Shown here one piece after another: positions 3,389 through 25,667 of a DNA stretch of 53,462 nt. Below the pieces are notes generated by a model. That model was not told the DNA's origin and searched no databases. It saw nothing but the letters and a program-made list of their open reading frames with translations. The stretch's first letter is position 1, and the number at the start of each line of letters is the position of its first letter. The position numbers and the translations under genes were made by a program. This stretch comes from Aquidulcibacter sp. (GTDB taxonomy: Bacteria > Pseudomonadota > Alphaproteobacteria > Caulobacterales > Aquidulcibacteraceae). The stretch lies in assembly GCF_020253525.1 (NCBI RefSeq), contig NZ_JADCBK010000072.1, positions 1 through 53,462 of the forward strand. The letters are read 5' to 3'.

Positions 3389-4648
3389 TTACTGGCGCAA
3401 TCTAGTTCCGTTTCCGCTTAGCTTCTTGTCACCCACGCCAATAGGAACAGGAACGCCAGAGCCTGTGTAATCTGTATTGATAACAAGCCGAGCGTTGCGA
3501 TCTAACGCAATCTCTTTGGCGACGACTACGCTCCATTTTGAATCTTCAGCAACAGATCCCGCTGCATTAATCAGCAATTCGGCATTGGGCAAATAAATGG
3601 TACCCAGAAGTTTATCGACGAAGCTGGAGGATATTTCCATGTCCTCTTCATTGTCTCGCGTTGTGACAATCACAAAGCCAGCCCAGTCACCTGTTGTTCT
3701 GCCGGTCAATGCAATGATTGAGCTCTCCGTAGCATTGAACGTCGCATCATCATCGAACATCATTACCACGTTATCGCCAGTAAGACTTCCGTTGCCTCTT
3801 ACAGCAAAAGACCTGCAAAAATAATGTTCGCCAGCTCCGAGAATTAGCTTTCCGCTGCCTTGTACAAGGACTATTCGATTGTGAACGCCCGCCGGAAGTG
3901 TAAAAACTGAAGATCCATTGACTTCAAGCGCTGCGCTTGGAGTGCCTGAACACGCATTGGCTCTTTTGATAGTTCGCCCCCTAAATGGATCGGCAACGCG
4001 AAGCGCTCCACTATTGGCGGCCGGTGTAAATCCGGTGCCGGTTGCTGTGCGTGAAGCTTGGATCGTTCCGGCCGTTACGACGCCTTTGCCTTCTGTCTGC
4101 ATATTCCCGTTTGAGTGAACCAAGCAATTTGTGGCTTGAACGCTGCTATTAAGAATAACGCTCAAGCCAGATGGTTCAGCTTCGTCGTCTTCGTTTTCCG
4201 GCAAAGCTAGCACACAAAGGGGTGCTTGGTTCAACGCCTCCGCAACCGCGTTAACTTCGATTCTGAAGCCTCCAGGGGGAACCATATTGCCGAAAAAGGA
4301 GCCACGTAGTCCGACTCCAGCAACTTGGAATCCACCATTGGAATTCTGGCTTGCGGTAAAGGTCATAGCTATTCGCGGCGACAAATCAGAGACTTGGTTC
4401 ATCGCGAACGTTTCTGCAAAGCCATTGGCATTCCGGGCGGAGCCACCAGCAACGGCCAGTTCGCGAGCACCAGCGAGTGCTGCGGCATCAACAGCAGCTT
4501 GCATTCGCGCCTTCTCACTACTGAGCGACACCATCTCGATTGTAATCACAACAATCATGGCCACAGGGATCGCAATAAGGCCCGTGACCACGGCTAGATT
4601 GCCGCGTTCGCCGCGTCGCCTAGTTCTCTGTCTCCTTGAAAACAACAC
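3389..4648 (-). CDS. TadG/TadE-like Flp pilus assembly protein
   Basis: 419 residues from a GTG start at 4648 (an in-frame stop lies four codons upstream; the adjacent TTG is the only other choice). A basic N-terminus is followed by a single hydrophobic segment (about residues 18-40) and then the 'ARMQAAVDAAALAGARELA' helix typical of the Tad/TadE-G N-terminal domain, which anchors pilus-associated pseudopilin-like proteins. The remainder (residues 60-419) is a beta-rich, Asn/Ser/Gly-rich extracytoplasmic region with paired cysteines (C143/C174 region, C230, C280). Tad systems build Flp-type adhesive pili, but no other tad gene is visible within the window, so this copy is separated from its cluster or acts alone. 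Confidence 0.78.
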   Translation of the reverse strand: MLFSRRQRTRRRGERGNLAVVTGLIAIPVAMIVVITIEMVSLSSEKARMQAAVDAAALAGARELAVAGGSARNANGFAETFAMNQVSDLSPRIAMTFTASQNSNGGFQVAGVGLRGSFFGNMVPPGGFRIEVNAVAEALNQAPLCVLALPENEDDEAEPSGLSVILNSSVQATNCLVHSNGNMQTEGKGVVTAGTIQASRTATGTGFTPAANSGALRVADPFRGRTIKRANACSGTPSAALEVNGSSVFTLPAGVHNRIVLVQGSGKLILGAGEHYFCRSFAVRGNGSLTGDNVVMMFDDDATFNATESSIIALTGRTTGDWAGFVIVTTRDNEEDMEISSSFVDKLLGTIYLPNAELLINAAGSVAEDSKWSVVVAKEIALDRNARLVINTDYTGSGVPVPIGVGDKKLSGNGTRLRQ

Positions 4649-5011: not shown

Positions 5012-6634
5012 ATGCAATTTTCTGATCCGAATTGGTGGCGTGGCGCAACGCTATATCAAATCTATCCACGAAGCTTTGCCGATTCAAATGGCGACGGGAT
5101 CGGCGATTTAAAGGGGGTAACCTCCAAGCTCGACTATGTCGCAGAACTCGGAGTTGATGGAATCTGGCTATCTCCATTTTTTGCATCGCCGCAGCGAGAC
5201 TTTGGCTATGACGTCAGCGACCATTGCGCCATCGACCCGATGTTCGGCGACATGCGAGATTTTGATGCTTTGATCGCCAAAGCGCATGCGCTCGGTCTAA
5301 AGGTAATCATTGATCAGGTCTGGTCGCACACGGCCATTGAGCATGCGTGGTTCCAAGAAAGCCGTCAAAGTCGCACAAATCCGAAAGCGGATTGGTATGT
5401 TTGGGCCGACCCACTGTGTGATGGATCCTGCCCGACGAATTGGCAGAGCTGGATGGGCGGCGGCACATGGACCTGGGAGCCCCGTCGTGGCCAATACTAT
5501 TTGCATAACTTTCTGCCCCAGATGCCGGACTTGAATTTTCACTGCCAAGAAGTTCGGAAAGCCATTTTGGATATAGGGCGGTTTTGGCTCGAACGCGGTG
5601 TTGATGGCTTCCGGCTGGACACGGTGAACTATTATTTCCACGACAAGCAGCTTCGCAATAATCCGCCAAAGCCCGGAGAGAGTCCGGCTACTATGCAGCG
5701 GCACATTTATAATGTCTGTCAGCCTGAAAACTTGCCTTTTCTGAAGCAAATTCGAGCATTGCTGAACGAGTTTCCAGGTAGATTTGTCGTTGGTGAAATC
5801 GGCTCCGATGACAATCTCGCTCGTATGATTGAATACACGGCCGGATCAGATCACCTACATACCGCCTATTCATTTCAGCTATTGAGCAATCGCGCTGACC
5901 CGAAACACTTTAGCGAAGCGATGGTGCCATGGACTAAAGGGCTGGGTGCATTAGCTTGGCCGTCTTGGGCGCTGAGCAATCATGACTGCGAGCGCGTGGC
6001 CAGCCGATGGGAACTCGATGCTCCATCAGATCAAGTCGCTCAGTTTGCCTTAGCACTCCTCCTTGCTCTGCGTGGCACAGTTTTTCTGTATCAAGGGGAG
6101 GAGCTGGGGCTTACTCAAGCAGAACTCAGATTTGAGGACTTAAAAGATCCCCTCGGGATTGCCAGTTGGCCTGCTAATAAGGGCCGTGATGGTTGCAGGA
6201 CTGTGCTGCCGTGGCTCCATGACCAAGCCTTTATGGGCTTTTCAGACACGAAGCCTTGGTTGCCAGTTATAGAAGGACACCGGGACCAAAGTATCGACTT
6301 ACAGTCCAAAAATCGAGCCTCTGTATTGGCTTTTGCGAAGCTGGCGATCCGATTACGCCAGTCGAGTTCTGCTTTGCGCTATGGCGATTTCAAGGTTCTT
6401 CACGAGGATGGCTCTTGTCTTATCTTTTCCCGCAATTGTTCGGGTGAAACTTGCCTGGCGGGCTTCAATTTCTCAGGCCAGACTCAAATAGTCCCTACTT
6501 CCAAGTCGCTGGTTGACCAGCCTGCATTGACTGTCGGCAGAGTATCGGTCGGCAGAAAGGAAATCACGCTCGGTCCGGTATCGGCCTTTCTGGTCTCTCT
6601 TCCCTCGCTATCTAGCCAAGGATTCTTTCCATGA
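5012..6634 (+). CDS. GH13 alpha-glucosidase (oligo-1,6-glucosidase type)
   Basis: Hydrolyses terminal alpha-linked glucose from oligosaccharides. I start at ATG 5012 (MQFSDPNWWRGATLYQIYPRSF), which matches the family N-terminus; the frame is open back to a TTG/ATG at 4955. The (beta/alpha)8 barrel carries the GH13 motifs: nucleophile D203 in GFRLDTVNYY, acid/base E262 in GEIGSDD and transition-state stabiliser D325 in SNHD. The length of about 540 residues is normal for the family. No signal peptide is visible, so it should act in the cytoplasm. It is the first gene of a five-gene operon; its stop overlaps the next start by 4 nt (ATGA). Confidence 0.9.
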   Translation: MQFSDPNWWRGATLYQIYPRSFADSNGDGIGDLKGVTSKLDYVAELGVDGIWLSPFFASPQRDFGYDVSDHCAIDPMFGDMRDFDALIAKAHALGLKVIIDQVWSHTAIEHAWFQESRQSRTNPKADWYVWADPLCDGSCPTNWQSWMGGGTWTWEPRRGQYYLHNFLPQMPDLNFHCQEVRKAILDIGRFWLERGVDGFRLDTVNYYFHDKQLRNNPPKPGESPATMQRHIYNVCQPENLPFLKQIRALLNEFPGRFVVGEIGSDDNLARMIEYTAGSDHLHTAYSFQLLSNRADPKHFSEAMVPWTKGLGALAWPSWALSNHDCERVASRWELDAPSDQVAQFALALLLALRGTVFLYQGEELGLTQAELRFEDLKDPLGIASWPANKGRDGCRTVLPWLHDQAFMGFSDTKPWLPVIEGHRDQSIDLQSKNRASVLAFAKLAIRLRQSSSALRYGDFKVLHEDGSCLIFSRNCSGETCLAGFNFSGQTQIVPTSKSLVDQPALTVGRVSVGRKEITLGPVSAFLVSLPSLSSQGFFP

Positions 6635-7458
6635 GTCTTGTTCTGAACTCTGATCTCGATCTTCCCTTTGACCTGAAGCCAGAGCAGCTCCACAAGTTTG
6701 AGAAAGACGGCTTCATCCATTTGAAATCGGTGTTGTCGCCAAGTGTATTGGCTGAGTATGGTCGCGAGATCACAAGCCTGACCATCGCGCTTAATACCCA
6801 GACTAAACCATTGCAGGAGCGAACCACATACGATCGCGCCTTCTTACAAGTTATGAATCTGTGGGAACAAAGCGAGCGTGTAAAAGCTTTCGTTCTTGGT
6901 AAAACCTTGGGTCGTATCGCTGCGGAATTGATGGGTGTACGCGGTGTGCGTCTTTACCATGATCAATCGCTCTACAAAGAGCCTGGTGGTGGGATCACGC
7001 CCGCGCACGCAGATCAGTATTATTGGCCACTTTCAACTGACCGCACAATTACCGCTTGGATTCCTTTACAGAACGTCCCTCTAGAAATGGGTCCACTGAG
7101 TTTTTATGCCGGTAGTCAACATGAAGCATTTGGTCGAGACCTCGGCATTTCCGATGAAAGCGAAGCCGCCATTACAGCGATGATGGAAGCCCGTCGATTC
7201 CCGTTAATCCAGAATCCATATGAGCTTGGTGATGTCAGCTTTCACTTGGGTTGGACGTTCCACAAGGCCGGATCAAATGTCTCTACCAAGCCGCGAAGTG
7301 TGATGACCATAATCTACATGGACGTTGACATGGTGCTCCAAAAGCCAACAAACGGCATCCAAGAAGGGGACTGGGTCCAATGGTGTCCAGGCGCACGCAT
7401 TGGCGAAATCATCCAAACGCCGAAAAATCCGATAGTTTACGAGCGTGCAACATGCTGA
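6631..7458 (+). CDS. Phytanoyl-CoA dioxygenase (PhyH) family Fe(II)/2-oxoglutarate oxygenase
   Basis: 275 residues. The jelly-roll oxygenase fold is indicated by the iron facial triad H126-x-D128 (AHADQYYWP) and H211 (WTFHKAGSN), with R222 placed to bind 2-oxoglutarate. Members hydroxylate small molecules, and some cleave C-O or C-P bonds through oxidation; the substrate here is unknown. Translation is coupled to the GH13 gene upstream (ATGA overlap) and to the alcohol dehydrogenase downstream (7-nt overlap). Sandwiched between glycosidases and two oxidation/hydrolysis enzymes, it is more likely to act on a sugar or sugar substituent than on phytanoyl-CoA, which is inference. Confidence 0.85.
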   Translation: MSLVLNSDLDLPFDLKPEQLHKFEKDGFIHLKSVLSPSVLAEYGREITSLTIALNTQTKPLQERTTYDRAFLQVMNLWEQSERVKAFVLGKTLGRIAAELMGVRGVRLYHDQSLYKEPGGGITPAHADQYYWPLSTDRTITAWIPLQNVPLEMGPLSFYAGSQHEAFGRDLGISDESEAAITAMMEARRFPLIQNPYELGDVSFHLGWTFHKAGSNVSTKPRSVMTIIYMDVDMVLQKPTNGIQEGDWVQWCPGARIGEIIQTPKNPIVYERATC

Positions 7459-8600
7459 GCCCGAGCCAAACAAGCAGCCGTAAGGGGCTGGCTGCCATTA
7501 CCGATGGCCGGGGCGGATTTGTTTTGGATTATGTATCTGTCCGTGCACCAATTGGGGACGAAGTAAGGGTGGCACTTGGTGCATCCGGCATATGCCACAC
7601 AGATTATGCATCTCTTTCGTGGGAGGGACCGCTTGTGGCAGGACATGAAGGAGCCGGTTGGGTCGAGGCCGTTGGACCGGATGTCATTGACTTGGAAATT
7701 GGCACTCCGGTTCTGCTTAATTGGGCAATACCTTGTGGCCGCTGCAAGCAATGCGAGACTGGGCACGCCAATATCTGCGAGCGTTCACATGGGATTGACC
7801 CTGAAACCTATGGAACAAGCCGCGCTGGACTAGGGCATACCATTTGGCAGGACCAAGCTATTGAGCGTGCCTTTAATCTTGGCACATTTTCAGAGTTTAC
7901 CTTGGTTCGTAGGTCGGCTGTAACCCCAATTTTGCCTGAAATTCCTGTCGAGCATGCCTGTATTCTGGGCTGTGGCGTCATGACGGGCGTCGGCTCTGTT
8001 CTGAATATCGCGCAACCCAGTCCCGGCGATACACTCGCTATTGTTGGCTGTGGTGGGGTGGGTCTTTCGGTTGTGCAGGGCGCGCGCTTGGCTGGTGTCA
8101 GCAAAATTATTGCGATTGACCTTCGGCAGGAAAGTTTGAACCGCGCACGAGAGATGGGGGCCACAGACCTTATCCTTGCCGATTCATCTGACGCCAATCA
8201 CGACGGCCTAACCGCACAGGTTAAAGCCAAGACCGCGGGACGCGGCGTAGATTTTGCGTTCGAGGCCACAGGCGTTGCAGCGCTAGCATTTTTGCCATTA
8301 AAGCTAGTCCGTAATGGCGGGATGGCTGTCCAAGTAAGTGGGGCCCATGGGCCTGTTGAGGTCCCAATGCCTATGTTCTGGTGGGATAAGCGGTACGTAA
8401 CTCCTCTATATGGCGGCTGCGTGCCCGACCGGGACTTCCCTCGCTTGATGCACTGGGCAGCTGAAGGCACGCTTCAATTGTCGACAATGATCTCCAAGAC
8501 CTATCGTCTCGAAGCTCTTAGTGACGCCATCGACGATATGTTGGCAGGCCGCACCGCAAAGGGTGTCGTTATCTTCGAGAATGGTAGGGCACATGTTTAG
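7452..8600 (+). CDS. Zinc-dependent alcohol dehydrogenase, class-III-like
   Basis: Chosen start ATG 7452 overlaps the previous stop; a longer ORF from 7380 would overlap the upstream gene by 79 nt. The 382-residue protein has catalytic zinc ligands C48, H65 (with E66 in AGHEGAG) and C174, the structural-zinc lobe C95/C98/C101/C109 (CGRCKQCETGHANIC), and the NAD-binding GCGGVG at 200-204 followed by an acidic IAID end of beta-2, so NAD is the likely cofactor. The VMTGVG and GARLAG surroundings resemble class III ADH, the family of S-(hydroxymethyl)glutathione (formaldehyde) dehydrogenases, although I cannot claim that exact activity. Confidence 0.88.
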   Translation: MLSPSQTSSRKGLAAITDGRGGFVLDYVSVRAPIGDEVRVALGASGICHTDYASLSWEGPLVAGHEGAGWVEAVGPDVIDLEIGTPVLLNWAIPCGRCKQCETGHANICERSHGIDPETYGTSRAGLGHTIWQDQAIERAFNLGTFSEFTLVRRSAVTPILPEIPVEHACILGCGVMTGVGSVLNIAQPSPGDTLAIVGCGGVGLSVVQGARLAGVSKIIAIDLRQESLNRAREMGATDLILADSSDANHDGLTAQVKAKTAGRGVDFAFEATGVAALAFLPLKLVRNGGMAVQVSGAHGPVEVPMPMFWWDKRYVTPLYGGCVPDRDFPRLMHWAAEGTLQLSTMISKTYRLEALSDAIDDMLAGRTAKGVVIFENGRAHV

Positions 8601-9411
8601 AACTTTTGAGAATGCGGAATTAACGGCAGATACATTTGGGCTGTCTCATGTCACCGTCAAAAGTAAAGCCTTGGGCAGACGGGCAGATGTCACGGCTTTC
8701 ATTCCTAAAGGCCTTGAGGCGTTGGCGAACGTTCCGGTTGTGACATTATTGCACGGCGTTTTCGGTTCGCATTGGGCTTGGGCATTTAAGGGTGAAGCGC
8801 ATCTGACCGCACGGGCGCTAATGTCGCAGAAACTGATTCCACCTATGGTGCTTCTTATGCCATCCGATGGTCTTTGGGGAGATGGGTCTGGCTATATTGC
8901 GCATGCCGATGCTGATTATGAGAAATGGATTGTAGAAGAAGTTCCAACAATCGCTTACGCGCTAACATCGGCCTGCAGCTCTGTTTCGCCCCGATTTTTG
9001 GCCGGACTGTCCATGGGTGGCTTTGCAGCCCTTCGCCTCGGTGCCAAATTTCCCAGTGCCTATAGGGCTATCAGCGCGCATTCGGCAGTGACTAACGTTG
9101 CCCAGTTAACCAAGCTGATTGAAGACGACACCGCCGGGTGGAGTTCTAATCCAAGCGACCAGGACATATTTGCGGCTATGCGGTCGGCTCATGGAAAACT
9201 ACCCTCCATCCGCTTCGATTGTGGCACAGAGGACGCTCTTCTCCCCGCAAACCGAGAACTCCACCAAAAGATGGCAAGCCATGACCTGATACATATCTAT
9301 GAAGAACTTTCTGGCGGCCATGATTGGGACTATTGGAAGTCCAACTTGCATCGTTCTCTCTTGTTTTTCGCCAGTATAGGCAAAGGGGTAGACGCAAATG
9401 CGAGTACTTAA
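8593..9411 (+). CDS. Esterase D / S-formylglutathione-hydrolase-like serine hydrolase
   Basis: Start ATG 8593 overlaps the dehydrogenase stop; ATG 8581 is the alternative. The 272-residue alpha/beta hydrolase shows nucleophile elbow GLSMGG (S140), acid D214 in DCGTEDALL and H243 in SGGHDWDYW, the arrangement of the esterase-D superfamily that includes S-formylglutathione hydrolase and mycolyltransferase-like esterases. No signal peptide, so cytoplasmic. Placed directly after a class-III-like alcohol dehydrogenase, the pair resembles a formaldehyde-oxidation module (dehydrogenase then thioester hydrolase); an ordinary carboxyl or sugar acetyl esterase is the alternative. Overlaps the next gene by 14 nt. 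Confidence 0.83.
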   Translation: MFRTFENAELTADTFGLSHVTVKSKALGRRADVTAFIPKGLEALANVPVVTLLHGVFGSHWAWAFKGEAHLTARALMSQKLIPPMVLLMPSDGLWGDGSGYIAHADADYEKWIVEEVPTIAYALTSACSSVSPRFLAGLSMGGFAALRLGAKFPSAYRAISAHSAVTNVAQLTKLIEDDTAGWSSNPSDQDIFAAMRSAHGKLPSIRFDCGTEDALLPANRELHQKMASHDLIHIYEELSGGHDWDYWKSNLHRSLLFFASIGKGVDANAST

Positions 9412-11605
9412 GCGACTTGTCTTTTGGATGTTTGGATTTGCCACTTTAATATTGGTCACGCCTGTCGAGGCATTAGAGAAGCACCCACTGAATTATGTAG
9501 ATCCGTTTATTGGCACAGATGGTACCGGCCATGTCTTTCCTGGTGCAGTCGTACCTTTTGGCATGGTTGCGCCAGGTCCTGATATGGAGGATCGGGGTTG
9601 GAGCTACTCCAGTGGCTACCAGTATCAAGGGCGCTCGATCCTTGGTTTCTCCAACACCCATATCAGCGGGGCGGGCATTGGTGAGCTGGGCGACGTTTTG
9701 CTCCAGCCCTCATCAGGGACTAAATGGACCCGTAAAACTGTCAATTTTCGCAGTTCCTTCGACAAAGTGACGGAGAAAGCCAGCCCAGGCTATTATGCTG
9801 TAACTTTGAAGGATCACGGCGTCCGGGTCGAACTCACAGCCGGTCAGCGCGTCGCAATTCAGCGCTATCGCTTTGACCGTTCGGGCAAGGTGCAGGTTCT
9901 TCTCGACCTGCAGCACGGCATTTTGTTTGGTGATGGCCCAAGAGTTTTGAAGTCGGAAGTGAAAACGGATGCTGTTCGTGGTGAGATTAGTGGTACTGTT
10001 TGGTCGAAAAACTGGGTTGAGCGTGAGGCATCCTTCATTGTGCGCTTTAGTCGGCCGATTTCGAATGTCATAACCTTGCCCGCGCGCCCTGGAGACCGCG
10101 CGCCGCGTTTGATTCTGGAATTTGACCTTAGACAGAGCAGAGCTTTAGAGGCGCGCATTGCCCTATCGACTGTGGATGTGGCTGGGGCGCGTGCCAATCT
10201 TGCTGCTTTTGGTCAGCCGCGTTTTGACGTTGTCGTTCAGTCTGCTCGTAGCCAGTGGAGCACCTTGCTGCAGCGGATTGAGATCGAAGGAAGCGATAGG
10301 GAGAAACGGATATTCTATTCCGCCCTTTATCGAACCTTGATCCATCCAAGCGATATTGCTGACGTGGACGGCCGGGTACGAGGTCCAACCGGCCAAGTCA
10401 TCAAAGCCGAAACGGGTCACTATTATAGCACTCTGTCCCTTTGGGACACGTTCCGAGGCGTCCATCCCCTCTTTACTTTGATCGTACCCGAACGCGTCGA
10501 TGGAATGATTCAGACCATGCTTGAGCATCATCGAGCCCAAGGCTATTTGCCTCTTTGGACCGCGTGGGGGCGCGAGACTTGGACCATGATCGGCAATCCC
10601 GCTTTGCCTGTTATCGCTGATGCGGTGGCAAAAGGGTTTCAAGGCTTTGATAAGGCCGAAGCTCTAGCGGCGATGATTGCTACCTCAACTGATCCGCGAC
10701 CTAATGCACCCGCATGGGCCCAGCGTGATTGGCGGGCTTACGAAGAGTTTGGCTATCTGCCTTATGATCTGAATGAGGGCGAAGCGGTCTCAAAGACACT
10801 AGAATACGGTATTGGTGATGACGCAGTGGCGCGTGTCGCGAGGCATTTAGGAAAGCATGAAATCGGCAAACGATTTGAGGTCCGTGCCGCAGGTTATCGC
10901 CATTTATTCGATCCATCAACGCAAACAATGCGCGCCCGTAACAAGGCGGGTGGCTGGCGAACCCCTTTTGATCCTTTGGTGCCCACTTCGCCGATGAATA
11001 ATCCAGGCGATTATACAGAGGCCAATGCATGGCAATACACAGCCACCCCAGCACTTCATGATGTGGATGGCTTCCGTGCGCTAGTTGGTGGATCAAGTGG
11101 CTTATCGCGCTGGTTGGATCGGTTCTTTTCCCTGCCATCGCTGGGCGATAACAAGCACTTGGGTCAAGAGGCACTCATAGGACAATATGCGCACGGTAAT
11201 GAGCCAAGCCACCATATTGCTTGGTTGTACGCCTATAGTGACACACCAGAGCGCGGCTATGAGATGATCGAGCGGATTGCCCGAACTTTTTACTCGGACC
11301 GTCCAGACGGCATTATTGGTAATGATGATTGTGGGCAGATGAGCGCATGGTATGTCTTTGCAAATTTGGGTTTCTATCCGGTTGAAGCTGCGAGTGGACG
11401 TTTCACCTTAGGGCGCCCTCTTGTGTCGAAAGCAAAGCTTCACTTAGCTAACGGAACGGTTCTTTTGGTTGAGCGTTTGGATATGAAGGATGTGGAGTTA
11501 AACGGGCGTGTCATTTCCGAACCAACCATTGACTACAAGAGCATAATGGTTGGGGGCAGGCTGTCGTTTCCCCACTTCACCGCTCAAGTGCCAAAAGCTA
11601 ACTGA
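9398..11605 (+). CDS. GH92 family alpha-mannosidase, secreted
   Basis: 735 residues. An N-terminal signal peptide (basic MRVLKRL, hydrophobic core to about residue 23, probable cleavage after VEA) sends it to the periplasm. The mature protein starts with the GH92 signature YVDPFIGTDGTGHVFPGA and continues with GWSYSSGYQY, the (alpha/alpha)6 region and the G-N-E-P-S-H-H active-site motif near residue 599, then D-D-C-G-Q-M-S near 645. GH92 enzymes are calcium-dependent exo-acting alpha-mannosidases working on N-glycan or mannan termini. As the last gene of the operon and the only exported one, it should deliver trimmed sugars to the cytoplasmic enzymes encoded upstream. Confidence 0.93.
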   Translation: MRVLKRLVFWMFGFATLILVTPVEALEKHPLNYVDPFIGTDGTGHVFPGAVVPFGMVAPGPDMEDRGWSYSSGYQYQGRSILGFSNTHISGAGIGELGDVLLQPSSGTKWTRKTVNFRSSFDKVTEKASPGYYAVTLKDHGVRVELTAGQRVAIQRYRFDRSGKVQVLLDLQHGILFGDGPRVLKSEVKTDAVRGEISGTVWSKNWVEREASFIVRFSRPISNVITLPARPGDRAPRLILEFDLRQSRALEARIALSTVDVAGARANLAAFGQPRFDVVVQSARSQWSTLLQRIEIEGSDREKRIFYSALYRTLIHPSDIADVDGRVRGPTGQVIKAETGHYYSTLSLWDTFRGVHPLFTLIVPERVDGMIQTMLEHHRAQGYLPLWTAWGRETWTMIGNPALPVIADAVAKGFQGFDKAEALAAMIATSTDPRPNAPAWAQRDWRAYEEFGYLPYDLNEGEAVSKTLEYGIGDDAVARVARHLGKHEIGKRFEVRAAGYRHLFDPSTQTMRARNKAGGWRTPFDPLVPTSPMNNPGDYTEANAWQYTATPALHDVDGFRALVGGSSGLSRWLDRFFSLPSLGDNKHLGQEALIGQYAHGNEPSHHIAWLYAYSDTPERGYEMIERIARTFYSDRPDGIIGNDDCGQMSAWYVFANLGFYPVEAASGRFTLGRPLVSKAKLHLANGTVLLVERLDMKDVELNGRVISEPTIDYKSIMVGGRLSFPHFTAQVPKAN

Positions 11606-13309: not shown

Positions 13310-13903
13310 TCATAGACCCAACTCACTCCAGCGTTTCAGGTAGATTTTGAACCAAGGCGCATAATTTTGCGGATTTGCGATGGCATCTAGTTTCAACTCG
13401 CGCACATCCGTCCAACGAATATCCGCCACTTCGTCAGGGGCCAAGTTAAAGTCAAGGTTCTGGTGCGGTACATCAGCTCTGAACACTTGGACGCGCTCAT
13501 GCTCGATCAGATTGTTTGAAACTTCTGCATAGTATTCAATTACGTGTGCAGCCTTAAGCTCCAACTTGAGGCCTAGCTCCTCCTGCAGTCTGCGTCTGGC
13601 GCTCGCCTCCGGTGCTTCATTCCAGTGAGGGTGCGTGCAGCAAGTATTCGCCCAGAGGCCCCCGCAATGATATTTGCTTTCCGCGCGCTTTTGGATCAGC
13701 AAATTAGGGCCACAAAACACGAACACGGAAACCGCCAAATGGAGGGTGCCGTCTTTGTGCGCTTTAAGCTTCTCGATTGGAAACAACAGACCATCTATCC
13801 CGATTGCTGGAATGATGGGCTGGATAGGTGCGGCTTTTTGCTTCATTGAGAGAGGCCAATCAACTGGGGTCTCTGGGAGATGGCTCACTTCGTCGACTCC
13901 CAT
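13310..13903 (-). CDS. idi: Isopentenyl-diphosphate delta-isomerase type I
   Basis: Interconverts IPP and DMAPP, supplying precursors for the bacteriochlorophyll tail, carotenoids and quinones. 197 residues from ATG 13903, which overlaps the puhE stop and has AGGA about 8 nt upstream; ATG 13846 is an alternative. The Nudix fold is recognisable: HLAVSVFVF, QKRAESKYHCGGLWANTCCTHP with the catalytic-type cysteine at 89, and the Nudix helix ASARRRLQEELG (102-113) carrying metal-binding glutamates. C-terminal PDEVADIRW and 'NPQNYAPWFKIYLKRW' agree with bacterial Idi. It is the last gene of the bchF-lhaA-puh transcription unit. Confidence 0.92.
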   Translation of the reverse strand: MGVDEVSHLPETPVDWPLSMKQKAAPIQPIIPAIGIDGLLFPIEKLKAHKDGTLHLAVSVFVFCGPNLLIQKRAESKYHCGGLWANTCCTHPHWNEAPEASARRRLQEELGLKLELKAAHVIEYYAEVSNNLIEHERVQVFRADVPHQNLDFNLAPDEVADIRWTDVRELKLDAIANPQNYAPWFKIYLKRWSELGL

Positions 13904-14721
13904 GATGTTGGTCCTAAATCCGTATCCTTTGGCGGCCTAGGATCTGGTTTCCGCACGCTCTTATTGGGTGAAGCCCACCGCCATAAGGCAGCGTCTTGAA
14001 CCGGCAAGACCATGAAGAAATGTTCCAACAAGGCCAATGCGGTCAAAGTAAACAGCAATACGAAGCCGGTCGCCATGGCTGAGCCTTCAGGGGCATGGTC
14101 CGCTTGAGTCATTAGCCAGGCACAGAGGATGAGCGAGCCGACTACCGAGATAGGCATCAATGCATTCATTGGCCGCTTGGGCAAATAGGACTTGAGATGT
14201 TCCAAATGGGAAGGGAAAAACTCGTCAGTCAGGTTTGGTACACCCAAAAAGATATTCAGTTTTGCGCTGATCCGCATAGTGAATAAAACCCCGAAAGTCC
14301 AAGATGCAACCTGATTAGGTTGGCCCCATGTCAACCCGACAAGGGCTAACAGCGTAAGAAAAATCGCAATCTCATGATGGATGACGGTTAAGGTTGCATA
14401 CTTAAAGCGAGCCCAACCCTTTGCATCGGCAGGGCATGCCGCAGGACGGGGACCCGTTATCTTACCCATCAAGAAGCTCGCTTCATGCCAGCCCCATATG
14501 CACAATGCACAGCCAGCTGCAAAGTATGCGGCAGAGCTTGTGTCTTTGTCGGCCGTAATAATTACGCCCCCGGTGGCCAAGGCGAGGACTAAGGCGAACA
14601 GGCTTAGAGCGGTGCCATAATTCTTGGGTGGCAAGCGCACAAGCAAGAGGATTATTCCGGTGCTGAACCACCAAGCGAACACCGTCGCAATTATAGGCAC
14701 AGACAAGGCGGCAAGGTCCAT
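13885..14721 (-). CDS. puhE: Photosynthetic complex assembly protein PuhE
   Basis: Start chosen at ATG 14721 (MDLAALSVPIIATVFAWWFSTG); the frame is open further upstream but into the puhC coding region. The 278-residue integral membrane protein has about seven hydrophobic segments and the PuhE/DUF3623 hallmarks: an N-terminal WWFSTG, a central 'CIWGWHEASFLMG', 'IHHEIAIFLTLLAL' and 'SAKLNIFLGVPNLTDEF'. PuhE modulates assembly of the reaction centre-LH1 core. It lies 43 nt after puhC and overlaps idi by 19 nt, so it belongs to the puh operon. In most proteobacteria acsF sits next to puhE; it is not here. Confidence 0.92.
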   Translation of the reverse strand: MDLAALSVPIIATVFAWWFSTGIILLLVRLPPKNYGTALSLFALVLALATGGVIITADKDTSSAAYFAAGCALCIWGWHEASFLMGKITGPRPAACPADAKGWARFKYATLTVIHHEIAIFLTLLALVGLTWGQPNQVASWTFGVLFTMRISAKLNIFLGVPNLTDEFFPSHLEHLKSYLPKRPMNALMPISVVGSLILCAWLMTQADHAPEGSAMATGFVLLFTLTALALLEHFFMVLPVQDAALWRWASPNKSVRKPDPRPPKDTDLGPTSWESTK

Positions 14722-14764
14722 TAGCGACCTCGCACTTTGCAAAACAGGTTGCTTGCAGTTGCCA

Positions 14765-15226
14765 TTAACGGGACCCGGGTTCAGCCAAAAAGCGGGCGAA
14801 GGCACCTTCATTGGTTGGCCCAAAGGCGCGCAGATCAATTTCCTTTCCCGTCGTTGGATCTGACATCGTCAACCGCTTGTTGGGATAACGGGAAAGGTTG
14901 AACGGTACCTCGGCGCCAATCTTGCGCAGTTTTCGATCGCGGACAAAACCGCGCATCACGGCTCGAATAAAGGCATCCTCACCGGGGGCAATTGTATCAA
15001 TCGTCGCGCCAGTATCGGCATTCAGAACAATGACCGACCCATCCGGTTCGTCCTTGAAGCGCATTTTAAGGAGCTGGCTTGGGATAGGTGCTGAAACAAT
15101 GGCGTCGGCGGGGGGATTAAGATTCTGATACCGGCCTACGGCTGCGGCGATTAGCGATAAGGCGATCAAGCTGCCTGCCGCGTACAAAGCCCCTTTTGGA
15201 AACGGTTCATGGTCGATCGCGCTCAT
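14765..15226 (-). CDS. puhC: Photosynthetic complex assembly protein PuhC
   Basis: 153 residues: short cytoplasmic N-terminus (MSAIDHEPFPKGAL), one membrane segment (about 14-32) and a periplasmic domain containing 'FKDEPDGSVIVLNADTGA' and 'FIRAVMRGFVRDRKLRKIG', the conserved PuhC core. Known role: needed for normal LH1-reaction centre assembly. It follows puhB after 85 nt, a gap that contains a hairpin, and precedes puhE. Confidence 0.92.
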   Translation of the reverse strand: MSAIDHEPFPKGALYAAGSLIALSLIAAAVGRYQNLNPPADAIVSAPIPSQLLKMRFKDEPDGSVIVLNADTGATIDTIAPGEDAFIRAVMRGFVRDRKLRKIGAEVPFNLSRYPNKRLTMSDPTTGKEIDLRAFGPTNEGAFARFLAEPGSR

Positions 15227-15269
15227 GTGTAAATTCCTTTAGTTGGACTAGGTGCGTTTAGGTAGTGTT

Positions 15270-15299
15270 TGACCCGCTCCACCTGAGCGAAGCGGGTCA
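15270..15299 (-). promoter_or_regulatory. Hairpin in the puhB-puhC gap
   Basis: TGACCCGCT (15270-15278) pairs perfectly with AGCGGGTCA (15291-15299) around a 12-nt loop in the only sizeable gap (85 nt) of the puh operon. No U-run follows in the direction of transcription, so it is not a standard terminator; it could stabilise or process the mRNA and set different levels of the upstream and downstream genes. Confidence 0.45.
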
Positions 15300-15311
15300 T
15301 AATTTGTGTTG

Positions 15312-15980
15312 CTAGGCGAGGGCAGGTTCTGCACCCACACCACCTCCTCTGGTGGCTTGAGACCCTTCATCGACCCTGGGCGCAGTCGCATGAGATTGTT
15401 CATGTGTCTGCCGGAGGGCCTCAGCGAGAACCGCCGCTGCGCTTGTGGCGTCACGCAGACAGCGGAGCGAAGGTTGCGGCTGCGAGACAAAGCCAGGACG
15501 CGCGTGTGGCCATAACAAGATAATCGAGATCTTGTTGGGCTTCACCAATTGCAATGCGACATCGCCGCTGCCATCCGCCTTTTGGTTCACAGCGGCGCTT
15601 TCAATTATCTTGTAAGGGATATTGATGGCCTTGGTGAGCGCAGCGCCGAACCGCATGACCAAGCGGCGGTTAGTCAATGTATAGACCGTGGTGCGGCTAT
15701 TCAGATAGGCCAAGCCAACCAAGAGGCCTAAACCCACGATTGCAATTGGTGCAACCCAAATGGCCGCCAGTAGTGCTGTGACCAAGTCTTGGCCATTAGC
15801 TGTGCTGTCGATAACGCGCCATGCCATTAGCAAGGCGAAATAGACAGCAACCCAATCCACCCGAAAAACCCTTCTGGCCATAAGGGTCCAATCCGGCTCT
15901 CCCTGCCACAGGATGGTTTCACCCGGTGGCAGGTCACTTGGGAGCCCGCGAATGGGCTCAAAGTCGTGTTCGACACTCAT
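15312..15980 (-). CDS. puhB: Photosynthetic complex assembly protein PuhB
   Basis: Start ATG 15980 (MSVEHDFEPIRGLPSDLPPGE) overlaps the puhA stop by 4 nt (ATGA). 222 residues: the conserved N-terminus 'PPGETILWQGEPDW' is followed by three hydrophobic segments (about 40-57, 70-100) and a PH-like domain with 'YTLTNRRLVMRFG' and 'IPYKIIESAAV'. PuhB acts as a dimeric assembly factor for the reaction centre. The C-terminal 40 residues are Ala/Glu/Gly-rich and look like a flexible tail. Confidence 0.93.
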   Translation of the reverse strand: MSVEHDFEPIRGLPSDLPPGETILWQGEPDWTLMARRVFRVDWVAVYFALLMAWRVIDSTANGQDLVTALLAAIWVAPIAIVGLGLLVGLAYLNSRTTVYTLTNRRLVMRFGAALTKAINIPYKIIESAAVNQKADGSGDVALQLVKPNKISIILLWPHARPGFVSQPQPSLRCLRDATSAAAVLAEALRQTHEQSHATAPRVDEGSQATRGGGVGAEPALA

Positions 15981-16759
15981 ATTGCAGGCTCCGAGCGGGC
16001 AGGTGTAGAATAGAGATAGCCAGCCCCAAAGTAGCCGACGATCTTTTCTTCTTCGAGCAGAGTCACCTGGTCTGGATTGGCCAATGTTGGCGCACCGGCA
16101 ACTTGGCTCCCCAAAACGGCGTCCAAACGAACACGATTTAAGTTCTTTTGCACGACGCACATGGTCATGGGTACGAGCACATGCTTGGCAGCCCCTCCTT
16201 CTGAGGTGACATCAACCTCCAGGTAGCGGACAAGAAACTCGGCTCGGTCTACCCAAATATCCTTGATAACGCCGCCAGTTGCGCCGTCGAGCCCGACCAG
16301 TGCCATGCCCCGTAAGTCTGGGTCCTTTTTGTCTATGGAATAATCGGTTGCAATGCGCAGCGGGGCCAAACGAGTTGTTCCATGGTTGGTCATGTCAGGC
16401 TTATCTGCCCGCATGGCGTACGAGCCTGGGCCAATGCCTGATGTCAGAGGATTGCCGTCGGGCTCAATGGGCGATCCCGACCAAGCGGCTGTCCGCTTGA
16501 ATTGGGTTGCATGGGTGTCGCGCGAATTGTCCGGTTTCACCAATTTGCTGCCGTCAGGCAGATTGTAGGTCTTGGGTAGAGCGCGGAAGAAAACACCAGG
16601 TGTTGGCTCTAACTCGCCCGTGACGTCGTGTTCAAGCGGAAATCCCTCGCGTCGACCTTCACGCAAGAGATAAAGAACCAGCATAAGGAAAAAACCAAAG
16701 AAGACATAGAGAACTATCTCTGTGACATCCACGGTCCCCGCGAAATAATAGTTATACAT
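15977..16759 (-). CDS. puhA: Photosynthetic reaction centre H subunit
   Basis: 260 residues. A single N-terminal transmembrane helix (about 12-32, VTEIVLYVFFGFFLMLVLYLL) is followed by a cytoplasmic beta-barrel domain, with 'REGFPLE' after the helix, 'FFRALPKTYNLPDG', 'YSIDKKDPDLRGMALVGLDG' and 'VGYFGAGYLYSTP' near the end, all characteristic of subunit H of the type II reaction centre. It caps the L and M subunits on the cytoplasmic side and controls proton uptake to QB. Located 18 nt after lhaA and overlapping puhB by 4 nt. This gene alone establishes that the organism carries anoxygenic phototrophy genes. Confidence 0.97.
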   Translation of the reverse strand: MYNYYFAGTVDVTEIVLYVFFGFFLMLVLYLLREGRREGFPLEHDVTGELEPTPGVFFRALPKTYNLPDGSKLVKPDNSRDTHATQFKRTAAWSGSPIEPDGNPLTSGIGPGSYAMRADKPDMTNHGTTRLAPLRIATDYSIDKKDPDLRGMALVGLDGATGGVIKDIWVDRAEFLVRYLEVDVTSEGGAAKHVLVPMTMCVVQKNLNRVRLDAVLGSQVAGAPTLANPDQVTLLEEEKIVGYFGAGYLYSTPARSEPAI

Positions 16760-16777
16760 GTCACTTCTCCATCGTAG

Positions 16778-18244
16778 TTAGAGGGTCGGGAATTCGGCGA
16801 GCCCAAAACGGCGCTCTCCGTTATTTGTGAGTTCCTGTGCTTCACGAATTTTCGATGCGCCCGGCGCATGCTTGGCGAGCGGACCAATCGCTATAAGTGC
16901 TGCGAACAGCAGCCCAATTTCCAAATGATAGACGAGACCGTAGCTGGTCACTTGTCCACTGAAGGCGGGGCCAAGCGCACCAGAACCCGACAATTGTGTG
17001 CCAAGATCGCGAATGCCGCCTCCCAGGGCAATCCCAATCCCAGCCGCAGTTGCCTGAACGCCACCCCAGGCACCAAGCGCAAGTCCAGACTGTTGGCCAT
17101 CCCGCGCCAATGCCATGGCCGCGGTTAGAGTACCTACTGAGAAAAGCCCGCCTCCAAGCCCAATACCCATAACACCCAAGCAAAAAAGTGGCGTTAGCGA
17201 GATTGCGCCAGAGAGGATGACGCAAGCGAAAGCCGCAATTCCAATCAATGCGCCATAACCAGCAAGCCGATGGGCTTCACCTTCTTTGCTGAGTTGCTGG
17301 GCGGCAAATGCAAAGCCAGTTAGCGTGCCTGCCGCCCATAGGGCGGTCAAAGCAGTGGTCGAACCCACATTCATGCCTAGAACTTCAGCTCCATACGGCT
17401 CAAGTAAAACATCTTGCATGGCAAATGCTCCAGCCCCGAGGCCAGTCGCGACCAAGAGGCGTAGGGTACGACCCTGCTGCATCAGCGAATTCCACTGGTC
17501 TCTAAAGACGGGGCGGACCCGGTCTGGAGCGGTAAGCGCGGGATTTCGAGCTTCTTGCTTCCAGACCGCAACCGTATTCAGGATCATCGAAACTAAAGCG
17601 GCACCTTGAATAACTTGGATCAGGCGAATTGCATCAAAGTCCACCAGCAAGCTGCCCAAAGCCAAAGACGAAATCAGCATGCCGACAAGAAGCATGACAT
17701 AAAGTAGGGCGACTACCCGGGGCCGTGTTTCGTCTGTTGCAAGGTCAGTTGCTAGAGCCAAGCCTGCAGTTTGAGTGGTGTGCATCCCAGCACCCACAAG
17801 GAGAAAGGCAAGTGCTGCCCCGATTTGGCCAATGACAACCGGTCCTTGCCCGTCACCTGATAGGATCAAAAGTGCGAACGGCATGATCGCTAGGCCGCCA
17901 AACTGAGCCAATGTGCCCAAAAGAATATATGGCGATCGGCGCCAGCCGAGATAGGATTTATGTGTATCAGACTTAAAGCCGATCAAGGCACGTAAAGGCG
18001 CAAACAACAGAGGCAGCGACACCATTAGCGCTACGAGAGTTCCACTAACGCCCAACTCCACAATCATCACACGGTTCAAGGTTCCGGTTAGCAAAACAGC
18101 TGCCATCCCCGTCGTGATTTGGAAAAGCGATAGACGCAATAGACGGCTAATGGGCAGGTCATCACTCGCAGAGTCTGCAAATGGCAGCATGCTGACGATT
18201 AGATTGCGCCATGCAATGGCATTTTTTTCGGCTTCCGGCGTCAT
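16778..18244 (-). CDS. lhaA: PucC family light-harvesting 1 assembly protein LhaA
   Basis: Start ATG 18244 (MTPEAEKNAIAWRNLIV) overlaps the bchF stop by 4 nt; the longer frame back to 18529 runs through bchF and is rejected. The 488-residue MFS-fold protein has about twelve membrane helices and the PucC/LhaA landmarks 'LSLFQITTGMAAVLLTGTLNRVMIVELGV', 'GFKSDTHKSYLGWRRSPYI' and 'QDVLLEPYGAEVLGM' (each given in part). It assists assembly of LH1 and probably pigment delivery. It sits immediately before puhA, its conserved position. Confidence 0.93.
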   Translation of the reverse strand: MTPEAEKNAIAWRNLIVSMLPFADSASDDLPISRLLRLSLFQITTGMAAVLLTGTLNRVMIVELGVSGTLVALMVSLPLLFAPLRALIGFKSDTHKSYLGWRRSPYILLGTLAQFGGLAIMPFALLILSGDGQGPVVIGQIGAALAFLLVGAGMHTTQTAGLALATDLATDETRPRVVALLYVMLLVGMLISSLALGSLLVDFDAIRLIQVIQGAALVSMILNTVAVWKQEARNPALTAPDRVRPVFRDQWNSLMQQGRTLRLLVATGLGAGAFAMQDVLLEPYGAEVLGMNVGSTTALTALWAAGTLTGFAFAAQQLSKEGEAHRLAGYGALIGIAAFACVILSGAISLTPLFCLGVMGIGLGGGLFSVGTLTAAMALARDGQQSGLALGAWGGVQATAAGIGIALGGGIRDLGTQLSGSGALGPAFSGQVTSYGLVYHLEIGLLFAALIAIGPLAKHAPGASKIREAQELTNNGERRFGLAEFPTL

Positions 18245-18981
18245 GATTGGTTCCTCACCAATCGAGAGCTTGTCGATGCTGTGGAGGCGGCGGTTTGCCG
18301 GTTGCCGTTGTCGATATCGACCTTTCGCCCTTCTAGCCGGGCCATACGCAGTTTCCAAAGAAACTGCGCCGCATTGATCAGATACGTACCGTAAGCCGCT
18401 ACGGCGATGTAGACTTGTTGTTGCGGCGTCCACCATCCCTTGAGAAGCGCAACGACATAAAGCGTCTGCAGCGCGAGAACCAACATGGAAAAGACATCTT
18501 CCCAGAAGAATGCTTCTACGAAGAGCCACTCGTCAAAAACGACCTTTTCCCAGATCGAACCTGTGATCATGATGGTGTACAGTAGAAATGTTTTTGCGAG
18601 GATGGATATCGTCGCCGCTTCATACCCATTGCCAGTGATCAGATAATTGGCCACGAGAGCCAAGCTGATTAGGAATACCAAAAATTGTAATGGGGCTAAA
18701 ATGGCCTGCACCATGGTCCAGGGTGTGGCATCACGTCGCGCCCTTTGCTCGGGGGTATAGAGGGGCCTTCTTGGCGGTTTAGACCGTTGTGCGGCCACAG
18801 ATGGTGTCAAACTGACAGGTAGATTGGACAAAACACAGTCAACCCCTGCTTGGTCCGCACTGAAAATCTCACCTTTTTTCACCTGATGACTAGGCGCACC
18901 AAGTTCAACAGCGGATGCGCCTTCGCACTCGCAAGATGTATGCGAAGCCGTTGAATTTGATAAGCTCTTCAAGGATTTCAT
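18241..18981 (-). CDS. bchF: 2-vinyl bacteriochlorophyllide hydratase BchF, uncertain start
   Basis: Hydrates the C3 vinyl group of (bacterio)chlorophyllide on the way to bacteriochlorophyll a. The BchF core starts at 'LYTPEQRARRDATPWTMVQ' and continues through four hydrophobic segments with 'IMITGSIWEKVVFDEWLF' and 'AFFWEDVFSMLV', then 'YLINAAQFLWKLRMARLEG', all typical. Start is the problem: ATG 18981 gives 246 residues, a GTG at 18798 gives 185, close to the usual 160-185, and the open frame reaches 19095. The extra N-terminal part has no family resemblance I trust, contains three cysteines (CEC, DCV), and may be leader DNA. It is the first gene of the operon ending at idi. Confidence 0.88.
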   Translation of the reverse strand: MKSLKSLSNSTASHTSCECEGASAVELGAPSHQVKKGEIFSADQAGVDCVLSNLPVSLTPSVAAQRSKPPRRPLYTPEQRARRDATPWTMVQAILAPLQFLVFLISLALVANYLITGNGYEAATISILAKTFLLYTIMITGSIWEKVVFDEWLFVEAFFWEDVFSMLVLALQTLYVVALLKGWWTPQQQVYIAVAAYGTYLINAAQFLWKLRMARLEGRKVDIDNGNRQTAASTASTSSRLVRNQS

Positions 18982-19050
18982 CCGGATTTTTCCATGGTCC
19001 GGAATTAAAATTGCCCGCACCATCCCGCAGTTTCGCACGCCCCCCCTGAT

Positions 19051-19068
19051 TGTCAAGCAATTTGGACG
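19051..19068. promoter_or_regulatory. PpsR/CrtJ-type site upstream of bchF (near match)
   Basis: TGTC-aagcaatttg-GACG: seven of the eight conserved bases of the PpsR consensus TGTC-N10-GACA. It lies in the divergent bchF/ppaA intergenic region, 70 nt upstream of ATG 18981, a sensible place for aerobic repression of the bchF-lhaA-puh operon by the PpsR encoded just across the promoter. Its location inside the open frame reaching 19095 argues for a bchF start at 18981 or further in. Confidence 0.5.
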
Positions 19069-19313
19069 CCCAATTAAACTGACACTTTTTGACATTCGGG
19101 GACAAAAAAACTAATTTGCCTATGGCTCATATTGAATCTTCGTGTAAGCTGACAAAACCAGAGGTCAGCAAAGTTCTGTCAAAAGGGCAGCTGCACTGGT
19201 TTGTGATGGCCTGCTGATTGTTCCCTTCCTGAAGCGGGCAATTCTAGCAGGGGGCAGCGCGTAGCTGGACGCGTACGAGACGGTGTGACTCCGAAGACAA
19301 TCTGGAGAAGCAA

Positions 19314-20198
19314 ATGCCCAATCAAGACACCTTGGAGCACCTGGATCCCAGAAGCCACGGCCATGAGGATCAAGCTCAGAATACATCGCCCCAGCACTCC
19401 GGCGACAAATCCACCGACTTAAAGATTATGGAGCTATTGGCTCAGATGGTCGAAGGGGATATCATCCCACGTCTCATGCTAGCACACAAAACCCACCGCG
19501 AACAAAACCAAGGTCAAGCTGCTGGGAAAGTGCTTGGCCACACCGCTGTGGTGGATTTGGCGCATATTCTTCTAACCCATGAAGTTGATGATGTGGAGTT
19601 GATCCTGCACGCTTATCTCAACTCTGGTATGCATTTAGATGAAGTTTACGTGGACCTCATGGCCCCCGCTGCCCGTCACTTGGGAGAGATGTGGGAGAAC
19701 GATACAGCTACGTTTGCTGATGTGACGATTGGTCTTGGGCGGATGCAGACGCTCCTGAACCGCCTTAGCGATTCCTATCGTAACCAGGAAGAAGTCCGGG
19801 ATGACCTCGCCTCCGGCCTTTTTGTTACGCCGGCCGGTGAAATGCATAGTTTTGGCATCCGCATGGTGGACGAACTGTTTAGGCGCGCCGGGTGGAGAAC
19901 TCTCTGCGAGCCCAATTCACGGCTCAACGACGTCTTGGCGATGGTTGGGAGTGAGAGCTTCCACATCCTCGGAATCGGGGTTTCGACCGAGTCACAAGTC
20001 CCTTTTGTGAGGGAATTGATCCGCCAAGTACGAAAAGTCTCACATAATCGCCATATTCTCGTGTTGGTTGGCGGAAGCTACATTGTTGGGCGGCCTGAGT
20101 TGGCCGCAAGCATCGGAGCCGATTTTTCTGCTAGTGACGGCAGAGAAGCTATCGCAATCGCCGAAACAGTCATATACGAGCACACCCACAGGCATTAG
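19314..20198 (+). CDS. ppaA: PpaA/AerR cobalamin-binding antirepressor
   Basis: 294 residues. About 60 divergent N-terminal residues precede a helical domain ('VDLAHILLTHEVDDVELILHAY' in part, 'VYVDLMAPAARHLGEMW') and a Rossmann-like B12-binding domain with 'GEMHSFGIRMVDELFRRAGW'; H178 in this motif is the expected cobalamin ligand region, and 'ILVLVGGSYIVGRPELAASIGAD' closes the fold. The family links B12 and light to PpsR/CrtJ control of photosynthesis genes. A GGAG sits just before ATG 19314. It precedes ppsR by 35 nt, so the two are probably co-transcribed, diverging from bchF. Confidence 0.93.
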   Translation: MPNQDTLEHLDPRSHGHEDQAQNTSPQHSGDKSTDLKIMELLAQMVEGDIIPRLMLAHKTHREQNQGQAAGKVLGHTAVVDLAHILLTHEVDDVELILHAYLNSGMHLDEVYVDLMAPAARHLGEMWENDTATFADVTIGLGRMQTLLNRLSDSYRNQEEVRDDLASGLFVTPAGEMHSFGIRMVDELFRRAGWRTLCEPNSRLNDVLAMVGSESFHILGIGVSTESQVPFVRELIRQVRKVSHNRHILVLVGGSYIVGRPELAASIGADFSASDGREAIAIAETVIYEHTHRH

Positions 20199-20233
20199 CC
20201 GTTTATGCTAGTTTCAAGGTTATCAACGCGCAC

Positions 20234-21664: not shown

Positions 21665-21800
21665 GGGCAAGTCTGCTTCTCGCTAATGCATGAGGCATAA
21701 GGTAGCGAAACTCATTATTGCGGGTAGCTCTTTCGTATGTGCATTGTTTGTGTGCATTGAAATTAATATGTTTTTTGAGGTTACTGTCAAAGTAAATTGG

Positions 21801-21818
21801 TGTCGAATTTAATTGACA
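21801..21818. promoter_or_regulatory. Perfect PpsR/CrtJ binding site upstream of bchG
   Basis: TGTC-gaatttaatt-GACA is an exact match to the palindromic PpsR consensus and ends 30 nt before the bchG ATG. A second TGTC half-site (21785-21788) lies exactly 16 nt upstream, and GACAC-N6-GTGTC (21815-21830) overlaps its right arm, giving a dense cluster as expected for cooperative PpsR binding. This implies oxygen- and B12/light-responsive control of bchG-bchP. Confidence 0.7.
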
Positions 21819-21847
21819 CTTTTCAGTGTCCAACATAGGCTTGCCCT

Positions 21848-24138: not shown

Positions 24139-24148
24139 GGATAAGGTC

Positions 24149-25336: not shown

Positions 25337-25357
25337 TGGGCGAAGTGCCTCACAATC

Positions 25358-25645
25358 ATGCCTGAAGTCTTGCCTTCTTCCATTACCCAATTCTTCCTCT
25401 CAGGCCTAGCAATTGATGTGGCTTTGGGAGTGATCGCGCTGGAATTCTTGGTGCTTTTGGCCTTGGGGAAAAGCGAAAAGATCCGTTCGCGTGTTGTCAC
25501 CCTAATCCTCGCGCTTGGACCTGGAGCGTGTCTTATGTTGGCCTTGCGAGCCGCATTAACACAAGCGGGCATTTTTTGGGTGGCTTTGTTTCTTTTGCTA
25601 TCTCTGCCGCTTCACTTGGCTGATCTTGCTCGGCGCAAAATCTAA
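25358..25645 (+). CDS. Small integral membrane protein downstream of bchP
   Basis: 95 residues, three hydrophobic segments: about 16-36 (IDVALGVIALEFLVLLAL), 44-66 and 69-88, with a short basic loop (GKSEKIRSR) and a basic C-terminus (ADLARRKI), so a positive-inside topology is likely. I do not recognise a family of known function. The 21-nt gap to bchP and the same strand make it the last gene of the ppsR-regulated bchG operon. In other purple bacteria idi often occupies this position; here idi is elsewhere. Confidence 0.7.
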   Translation: MPEVLPSSITQFFLSGLAIDVALGVIALEFLVLLALGKSEKIRSRVVTLILALGPGACLMLALRAALTQAGIFWVALFLLLSLPLHLADLARRKI

Positions 25646-25667
25646 TTGCAGAGCGAGGCTTACGAGA

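Follow-up and report, generated by a model that had tools for sequence, protein, structure and literature searches.

The window analysed here, the whole stretch of 53,462 nucleotides of Aquidulcibacter sp. contig NZ_JADCBK010000072.1, belongs to a 3.49 Mb genome. At positions 5012–11605 it carries an operon of two glycosidases, an oxygenase, an alcohol dehydrogenase (ADH) and an esterase, which most likely serves the catabolism of an O-methylated alpha-hexoside. The five genes are as follows.

5012–6634, plus strand: GH13 alpha-glucosidase-type hydrolase (PF00128, 404 bits); no export signal seen by eye
6631–7458, plus strand: PhyH-type Fe(II)/2-oxoglutarate dioxygenase, proposed sugar O-demethylase (PF05721, 86.8 bits)
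7452–8600, plus strand: zinc MDR alcohol dehydrogenase of the FoADH/ZoADH type (ADH_N and ADH_zinc_N, Pfam)
8593–9411, plus strand: cytosolic PF00756 esterase (69.4 bits), homologue of the ADH-paired esterase in P450 clusters
9398–11605, plus strand: GH92 glycosidase of the alpha-mannosidase family (GH92N and GH92, Pfam); signal-like N-terminus by eye

The coordinates of these overlapping genes given in the initial annotation hold, as do the overlaps: 4 nt (GH13/PhyH), 7 nt (PhyH/ADH), 8 nt (ADH/esterase) and 14 nt (esterase/GH92). The GH13 gene starts at 5012 and not at the upstream ATG at 4955, as indicated by the congener protein, which begins MQTSDPSWWRG. Its product is placed among alpha-glucosidases by the PF00128 match and by closeness to characterised alpha-glucosidases; in the Protein Data Bank (PDB) the best match is alpha-glucosidase 3wy1 (595.8 bits), and alpha-glucosyltransferase 6aav reaches 590.8 bits. 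Among the 25 listed of 34 NCBIfam rows, none passed an equivalog cut-off. The GH92 protein exceeds the TIGR01180 cut-off (533.8 against 249.55 bits), has 7zgm as its best PDB match (594.9 bits) and carries the motifs DYTEANAW at 538 and GNDDCGQMSAWY at 641, which we take to be catalytic. It is probably exported, judging by eye from a hydrophobic N-terminus.

The oxygenase belongs to the PhyH family by its PF05721 profile match and a 2-His-1-Asp site with Arg. Residues H126, D128, H205 and H211 are kept in 82/82 aligned rows and R222 in 81/82; the choice between H205 and H211 as the distal Fe ligand follows the spacing presumed for human PHYH. The ADH zinc ligands C48 and H65 and the structural Cys 95, 98, 101 and 109 are conserved in 48/48 rows, C174 in 47 (one gap). 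In the esterase triad, S140 is found in 52/52 rows, while D214 and H243 are each kept in 51, the remaining row being a gap. The catalytic and zinc sites of the three proteins, described earlier as intact, are thus kept across the aligned relatives.

Scanning two peptide patterns over 84,980 species genomes gave 327 PhyH relatives. The locus counts below, made by tblastn, rest on the best 80 of these plus L029 (81 loci, near relatives only); loci truncated at contig ends stay in the denominators, and seven loci are duplicate contigs (L033–L039, the same as L021–L027). Set A3 comprised 35 PhyH rows, with L041 excluded for a stop in its stretch. Louvain clusters of neighbours rest on mechanical open reading frames (ORFs) in GC-rich DNA, some antisense ORFs having entered.

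By its PhyH, the genome has Aquidulcibacter paucihalophilus as its nearest named relative (94% identity); Ca. Phycosocius bacilliformis stands at 80%. The order GH13–PhyH–ADH–esterase–GH92, which the initial annotation had singled out for a search across genomes, is kept at the matching place in 7/8 other genomes of the genus, with PhyH of 80–94% identity; in G001 the contig ends inside GH92, and in G006 neither a PhyH match nor the operon was found. At the family level, a contig end in G009 holds GH13 with PhyH (64%), and G017 pairs PhyH (60%) with GH92; ADH and esterase were not found in the stretch around PhyH in either.

The 81 loci span Alpha-, Beta- and Gammaproteobacteria. All five genes occur in order, intervening genes allowed, in 16 loci from the three classes, seven of these being the genus itself; PhyH, ADH and esterase are ordered in 34 loci and contiguous in 30. 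GH92 is present in 55/81 loci and GH13 (any match of 60 bits) in 71/81. One or the other is near PhyH in 78/81, the exceptions being L042 and L065 (both cut contigs) and L103, and neither matched in any of 17 comparison stretches (321,794 bases in total, composition not matched). A chance neighbourhood of the five genes is ruled out by the conserved order together with the recurrence of GH13 or GH92. Other PhyH loci also hold cyclomaltodextrinase- and glucodextranase-like GH13s, sugar-type MFS transporters, AraC regulators and a second PhyH.

This context bears on what PhyH hydroxylates. Its closest solved relatives are natural-product hydroxylases and epimerases (SnoK, the best PDB match at 64.8 bits, SnoN and MysH), and the target of PhyH could be an aglycone of lipid or terpenoid type, a deoxy sugar or, as for the enzyme that gives the family its name, a CoA thioester. 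The inspected loci showed no CoA or lipid genes and held GH13, GH92, AraC and sugar-type MFS genes instead; the ADH–esterase pair, moreover, links PhyH to known demethylation (see below). Such a target is therefore quite unlikely, and gene context speaks against a phytanoyl-CoA hydroxylase proper acting on a CoA thioester. A constant association of PhyH homologues with non-glycan genes was looked for as counter-evidence and was not what the loci held.

Three observations on PhyH loci stand apart from the operon. A TIM-barrel protein (L029:9079–9912, minus strand) follows PhyH in 8/81 loci (L029, L059, L067, L069, L070, L072, L078, L097); ADH and esterase were found in none of these eight, and the protein is perhaps an alternative to the pair. 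This neighbour (P0006) had no family match, and two homologues match PF01261 below the cut-off. At L068:1425–2255, as well as in one neighbour cluster of four loci, a second, different PhyH protein adjoins the first. The distant relatives L129 (42%, Priestia) and L131 (32%, Deinococcus) stand alone next to an AraC gene in sugar-transport surroundings.

The initial annotation had described the dehydrogenase as class-III-like, the hydrolase as esterase D and the two as the standard formaldehyde-oxidation pair, and these assignments fail. The ADH scores 203.8 bits with the S-(hydroxymethyl)glutathione dehydrogenase model TIGR02818 (cut-off 543.95) and the esterase 28.8 bits with the S-formylglutathione hydrolase model TIGR02821 (cut-off 281.7). 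On another contig, C55, this genome encodes a true FrmA (600.9 bits) and, next to it, a true FrmB (389.4 bits). Identity of the ADH to this FrmA is about 34%, and in their alignment the ADH (P0003) has the FrmA-site Arg (IR in LCTAIRATQG) replaced and a five-residue loop absent; the Arg is not kept in the FoADH/ZoADH rows either. In FrmA, this Arg and the neighbouring loop presumably form part of the glutathione site. Across the genus, both models pass their cut-offs in 5/9 genomes, and in G003, G004 and G005 the operon is present with no frmA or frmB over the cut-off.

The closest solved structures to the ADH are 8h2a and 8h2b (373.5 bits; next match, 175.5 bits). According to the available passages of PMC10033563, these are FoADH and ZoADH, from neighbourhoods of P450s that demethylate 6-O-methyl-galactose, where an esterase is also encoded. 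The ADH is 49 and 48% identical to them and falls within their group by full-length similarity and by tree grouping apart from FrmA, the sole outgroup row being very long. The same passages report that deletion of ZoADH or of the P450 impaired growth on 6-O-methyl-galactose and not on galactose, and that neither FoADH nor ZoADH acted on formaldehyde, whether alone or together with a thiol (glutathione, mycothiol, bacillithiol, cysteine, CoA, ergothioneine and others), a further point against the formaldehyde pair. In both enzymes, reduction of aromatic and furan aldehydes far exceeds alcohol oxidation, in which 2,5-bis(hydroxymethyl)furan, a ring bearing CH2OH groups, is the best substrate (PMC10033563).

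A search of 72,556 plasmid records with the ADH returned three at E 1e-60. Microscilla pSD15 carries P450, ferredoxin, reductase, AraC, ADH and esterase, along with agarase, sulfatase and fucosidases. A Catenovulum plasmid has AraC, ADH and esterase, with the P450 (80%) elsewhere on the plasmid. Emticicia pEMTOL04 has AraC, PhyH (57% identical to that of Aquidulcibacter), ADH and esterase, and also sulfatases and TonB receptors. The Aquidulcibacter esterase is likewise related to the ADH-adjacent partners of Microscilla pSD15 (47%, 264 aa), Emticicia (44%) and Catenovulum (36%). The best PDB match of the Microscilla P450 is 6g5o (666 bits; next, 151.6), which we take to be the Zobellia demethylase P450; no paper naming 6g5o was found in the open-access literature.

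The ADH is rare, being found in 6/398 genomes of a phylum sample (E 1e-90). In one gammaproteobacterial order (that of G764; 295 genomes), it occurs in eight (E 1e-80) and the P450 in nine (E 1e-100), all eight lying within the nine (Fisher 7e-15, uncorrected for kinship; 6 genera). In the P450-type loci ADH and esterase are adjacent in 11/11 and an AraC regulator is present in 10/11; in six of them P450, ferredoxin and reductase share the stretch, and in the remaining five they are found at another place in the genome or record. The two oxygenases exclude each other in these samples: PhyH (E 1e-10), present in G000 and G645, was found in 0/11 P450-type genomes or records, and no P450 matched in the 81 PhyH loci. 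Of the genomes or records with the ADH, the five that lack PhyH all have a demethylase-type P450, and the three PhyH carriers G000, G645 and Emticicia (plasmid only) have none, their best matches being ≤30%. In G000 the best P450 is 27% identical, which places this genome outside the P450-type demethylase system.

Exchange of the oxygenase partner is suggested by the trees. In the ADH tree (50 rows; rows ≤300 residues and L042 left out), the PhyH-linked ADH of Emticicia clusters (96/87) with FoADH, ZoADH and Microscilla and not with the 35 other PhyH-linked rows, and a single clade for all PhyH-linked rows is rejected (AU p 0.023). In the esterase tree (53 rows; rows ≤200 residues left out), the Emticicia esterase is likewise with the P450-linked ones (single PhyH-linked clade, AU p 0.041). 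Outgroup rows are very long in both trees; the count of two changes is independent of the root.

Both partners could play auxiliary roles that do not concern the C1 unit: the ADH might reduce aldehydes or balance NADH, and the esterase might deacylate the glycan. This would suit the strong aldehyde reduction by FoADH and ZoADH in the text of PMC10033563, and secreted PF00756 esterases or a tannase near other PhyH loci make acylated glycans plausible. The two genes are, however, rarely apart: ADH is present in 36 and esterase in 39 of the 81 PhyH loci, both in 35, ADH only in one, esterase only in four and neither in 41 (Fisher 2.7e-17). The pair also tracks the demethylating P450 and no common glycan (galactans go with the P450, alpha-glucosides or mannosides with PhyH), so auxiliary roles appear improbable.

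Because one ADH–esterase type serves both oxygenases, PhyH would make the same kind of product as the P450, and it probably replaces the latter as sugar O-demethylase. The earlier proposal that PhyH oxidatively removes sugar O-methyl groups gains from the homology of the pair to that of the P450 system and from the glycosidases in nearly all loci, and loses its class III/esterase D step. In the proposed sequence, GH92 (probably exported) and the cytosolic GH13 would free the sugars. With Fe(II), O2 and 2-oxoglutarate, PhyH would then hydroxylate the methyl ether to the hemiacetal R-O-CH2OH, hence to the demethylated sugar, taking the place of P450, ferredoxin and reductase of the porphyran system, while ADH and esterase would handle the C1 unit.

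An esterase acting after the ADH implies an ester, thioester or lactone product, so the ADH would oxidise a hemiacetal or hemithioacetal. If it is the latter, formaldehyde would be freed by PhyH and oxidised by ADH and esterase through some other thiol, as was also raised by Brott et al. Thiol-dependent formaldehyde oxidation has this very layout, an unknown thiol is left open in the available passages of PMC10033563, and 3/8 operon genomes (G003, G004 and G005) are those with no frmA or frmB over the cut-off. Against it stand the inactivity of FoADH and ZoADH with the many thiols listed above, the span of the pair over Bacteroidota and Pseudomonadota, which need not have a common thiol, the replaced Arg of the presumed glutathione site in P0003 and in FoADH/ZoADH, and a true frmA–frmB pair in 5/8 operon genomes. 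This thiol-based oxidation is accordingly regarded as unlikely.

A sugar hemiacetal is proposed as the ADH substrate instead, since it is the product common to both oxygenases, the thiols failed and the FrmA Arg is not kept. With either oxygenase, the ADH (NAD+) would oxidise R-O-CH2OH to the formate ester R-O-CHO before the hemiacetal collapses, and the esterase would hydrolyse the ester to R-OH and formate, avoiding free formaldehyde. Formate could be used by formate-tetrahydrofolate ligase, which is present in 8/9 genomes of the genus and missing in G006, the genome without the operon; formate dehydrogenase alpha was over the cut-off in 0/9. Such a route, put forward tentatively and at rather less than even confidence, would account for the ADH being required on the methyl sugar while showing no activity on formaldehyde and thiols, for the constant position of the esterase after it, and for both working with two unrelated oxygenases. 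The path of methyl tert-butyl ether via tert-butyl formate, presumably a precedent, was sought and no paper was found. In the available text of PMC12572079, yeast ADH converts the methanol–formaldehyde hemiacetal to methyl formate, which is a precedent. The preference of FoADH and ZoADH for 2,5-bis(hydroxymethyl)furan in oxidation (PMC10033563, in part) is consistent with the formate ester and no proof of it. The P450 alone gives equimolar formaldehyde in vitro; this, the narrow active site, the favoured aldehyde reduction and the four loci with esterase and no ADH speak against this route.

GH13 and GH92 together point to alpha-glucosides or alpha-mannosides, and methylated mannose or glucose is named as the substrate with low confidence. 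Methylated alpha-glucans, the methylated mannose of algal N-glycans and actinobacterial methylglucose polysaccharides are the candidates considered. Terminal 3-O-methyl- and 3,6-di-O-methyl-mannose are described for Chlorella vulgaris N-glycans in part of PMC6344472, which suits algae-associated hosts; the relatives Aquidulcibacter (PMC5712168, in part) and Ca. Phycosocius (PMC10008586, in part) live with freshwater algae.

Several points weigh against the demethylation reading as a whole. The sugar released by GH13 and GH92 is not methylated-specific by any test here. According to the passages of PMC10033563, FoADH and ZoADH were inactive on galactose, 6-O-methyl-galactose and other sugars, and the authors consider the active site too narrow for sugars. 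PhyH often stands without ADH and esterase, as in the 41 loci with neither; esterase occurs without ADH in L049, L053, L085 and L090, and ADH alone in L042, at a contig end. One of the nine P450 genomes, G866, has no ADH. All co-occurrence counts take in related genomes, and the shift in pairing is one row (Emticicia, plasmid only) with modest p values and long branches.

Elsewhere in the window, anoxygenic photosynthesis genes adjoin the operon (13310–26348; reaction-centre H chain PRCH at 15977–16759), as they also do in congeners with long enough contigs. A malic enzyme–phosphotransacetylase fusion (10–1431; 761 aa in congeners) is truncated by the contig start. A TadG-like protein (3389–4648, minus strand) is present in one copy, and in two diverged copies in congeners L022, L023 and L025. 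The genes at 29609–37074 (a GntR-type regulator, judged by eye, a class-III aminotransferase, two glutamine synthetase-like genes and a solute-binding protein) resemble polyamine use. A 935-aa ORF without a Pfam match (41726–44533), followed by a TonB receptor, is built from two halves that resemble each other, matching at 74% over 300 nt and at 80% over 92 nt with a spacing of about 1320 nt. At the contig end (48791–52611) lie conjugation/secretion genes of the VirB4 and VirB6 types.

The published sugar O-demethylase located so far in the open-access literature is a P450; within that scope, no PhyH-type sugar O-demethylase or ester route was found. If the proposal is true, a simple two-substrate dioxygenase with 327 relatives would widen methyl-sugar use beyond seaweed bacteria to freshwater and soil Proteobacteria, and the role of the ADH that porphyran users need, so far unsolved, could be tested directly. 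Like the porphyran P450 system of Formosa and Zobellia (Reisky et al. 2018, Brott et al. 2023), the Aquidulcibacter operon has a homologous ADH and esterase by an oxygenase among glycosidases; loci of the porphyran type often carry an AraC regulator. Unlike that system, it uses a PhyH dioxygenase, which requires neither ferredoxin nor reductase; its glycosidases are GH13 and GH92 where the porphyran system has agarase, GH2 and GH16, and PhyH-type hosts are mostly freshwater and soil Proteobacteria. With FrmA/FrmB glutathione-dependent formaldehyde oxidation it shares a zinc ADH adjoining a PF00756-fold esterase, whereas both its proteins fall below the curated cut-offs and FrmA/FrmB are encoded on another contig. 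The methyl formate synthase activity of yeast ADH (PMC12572079, in part) likewise turns a formaldehyde-derived hemiacetal into a formate ester; yeast ADH acts on the methanol hemiacetal, whereas a sugar hemiacetal is only proposed for the operon.

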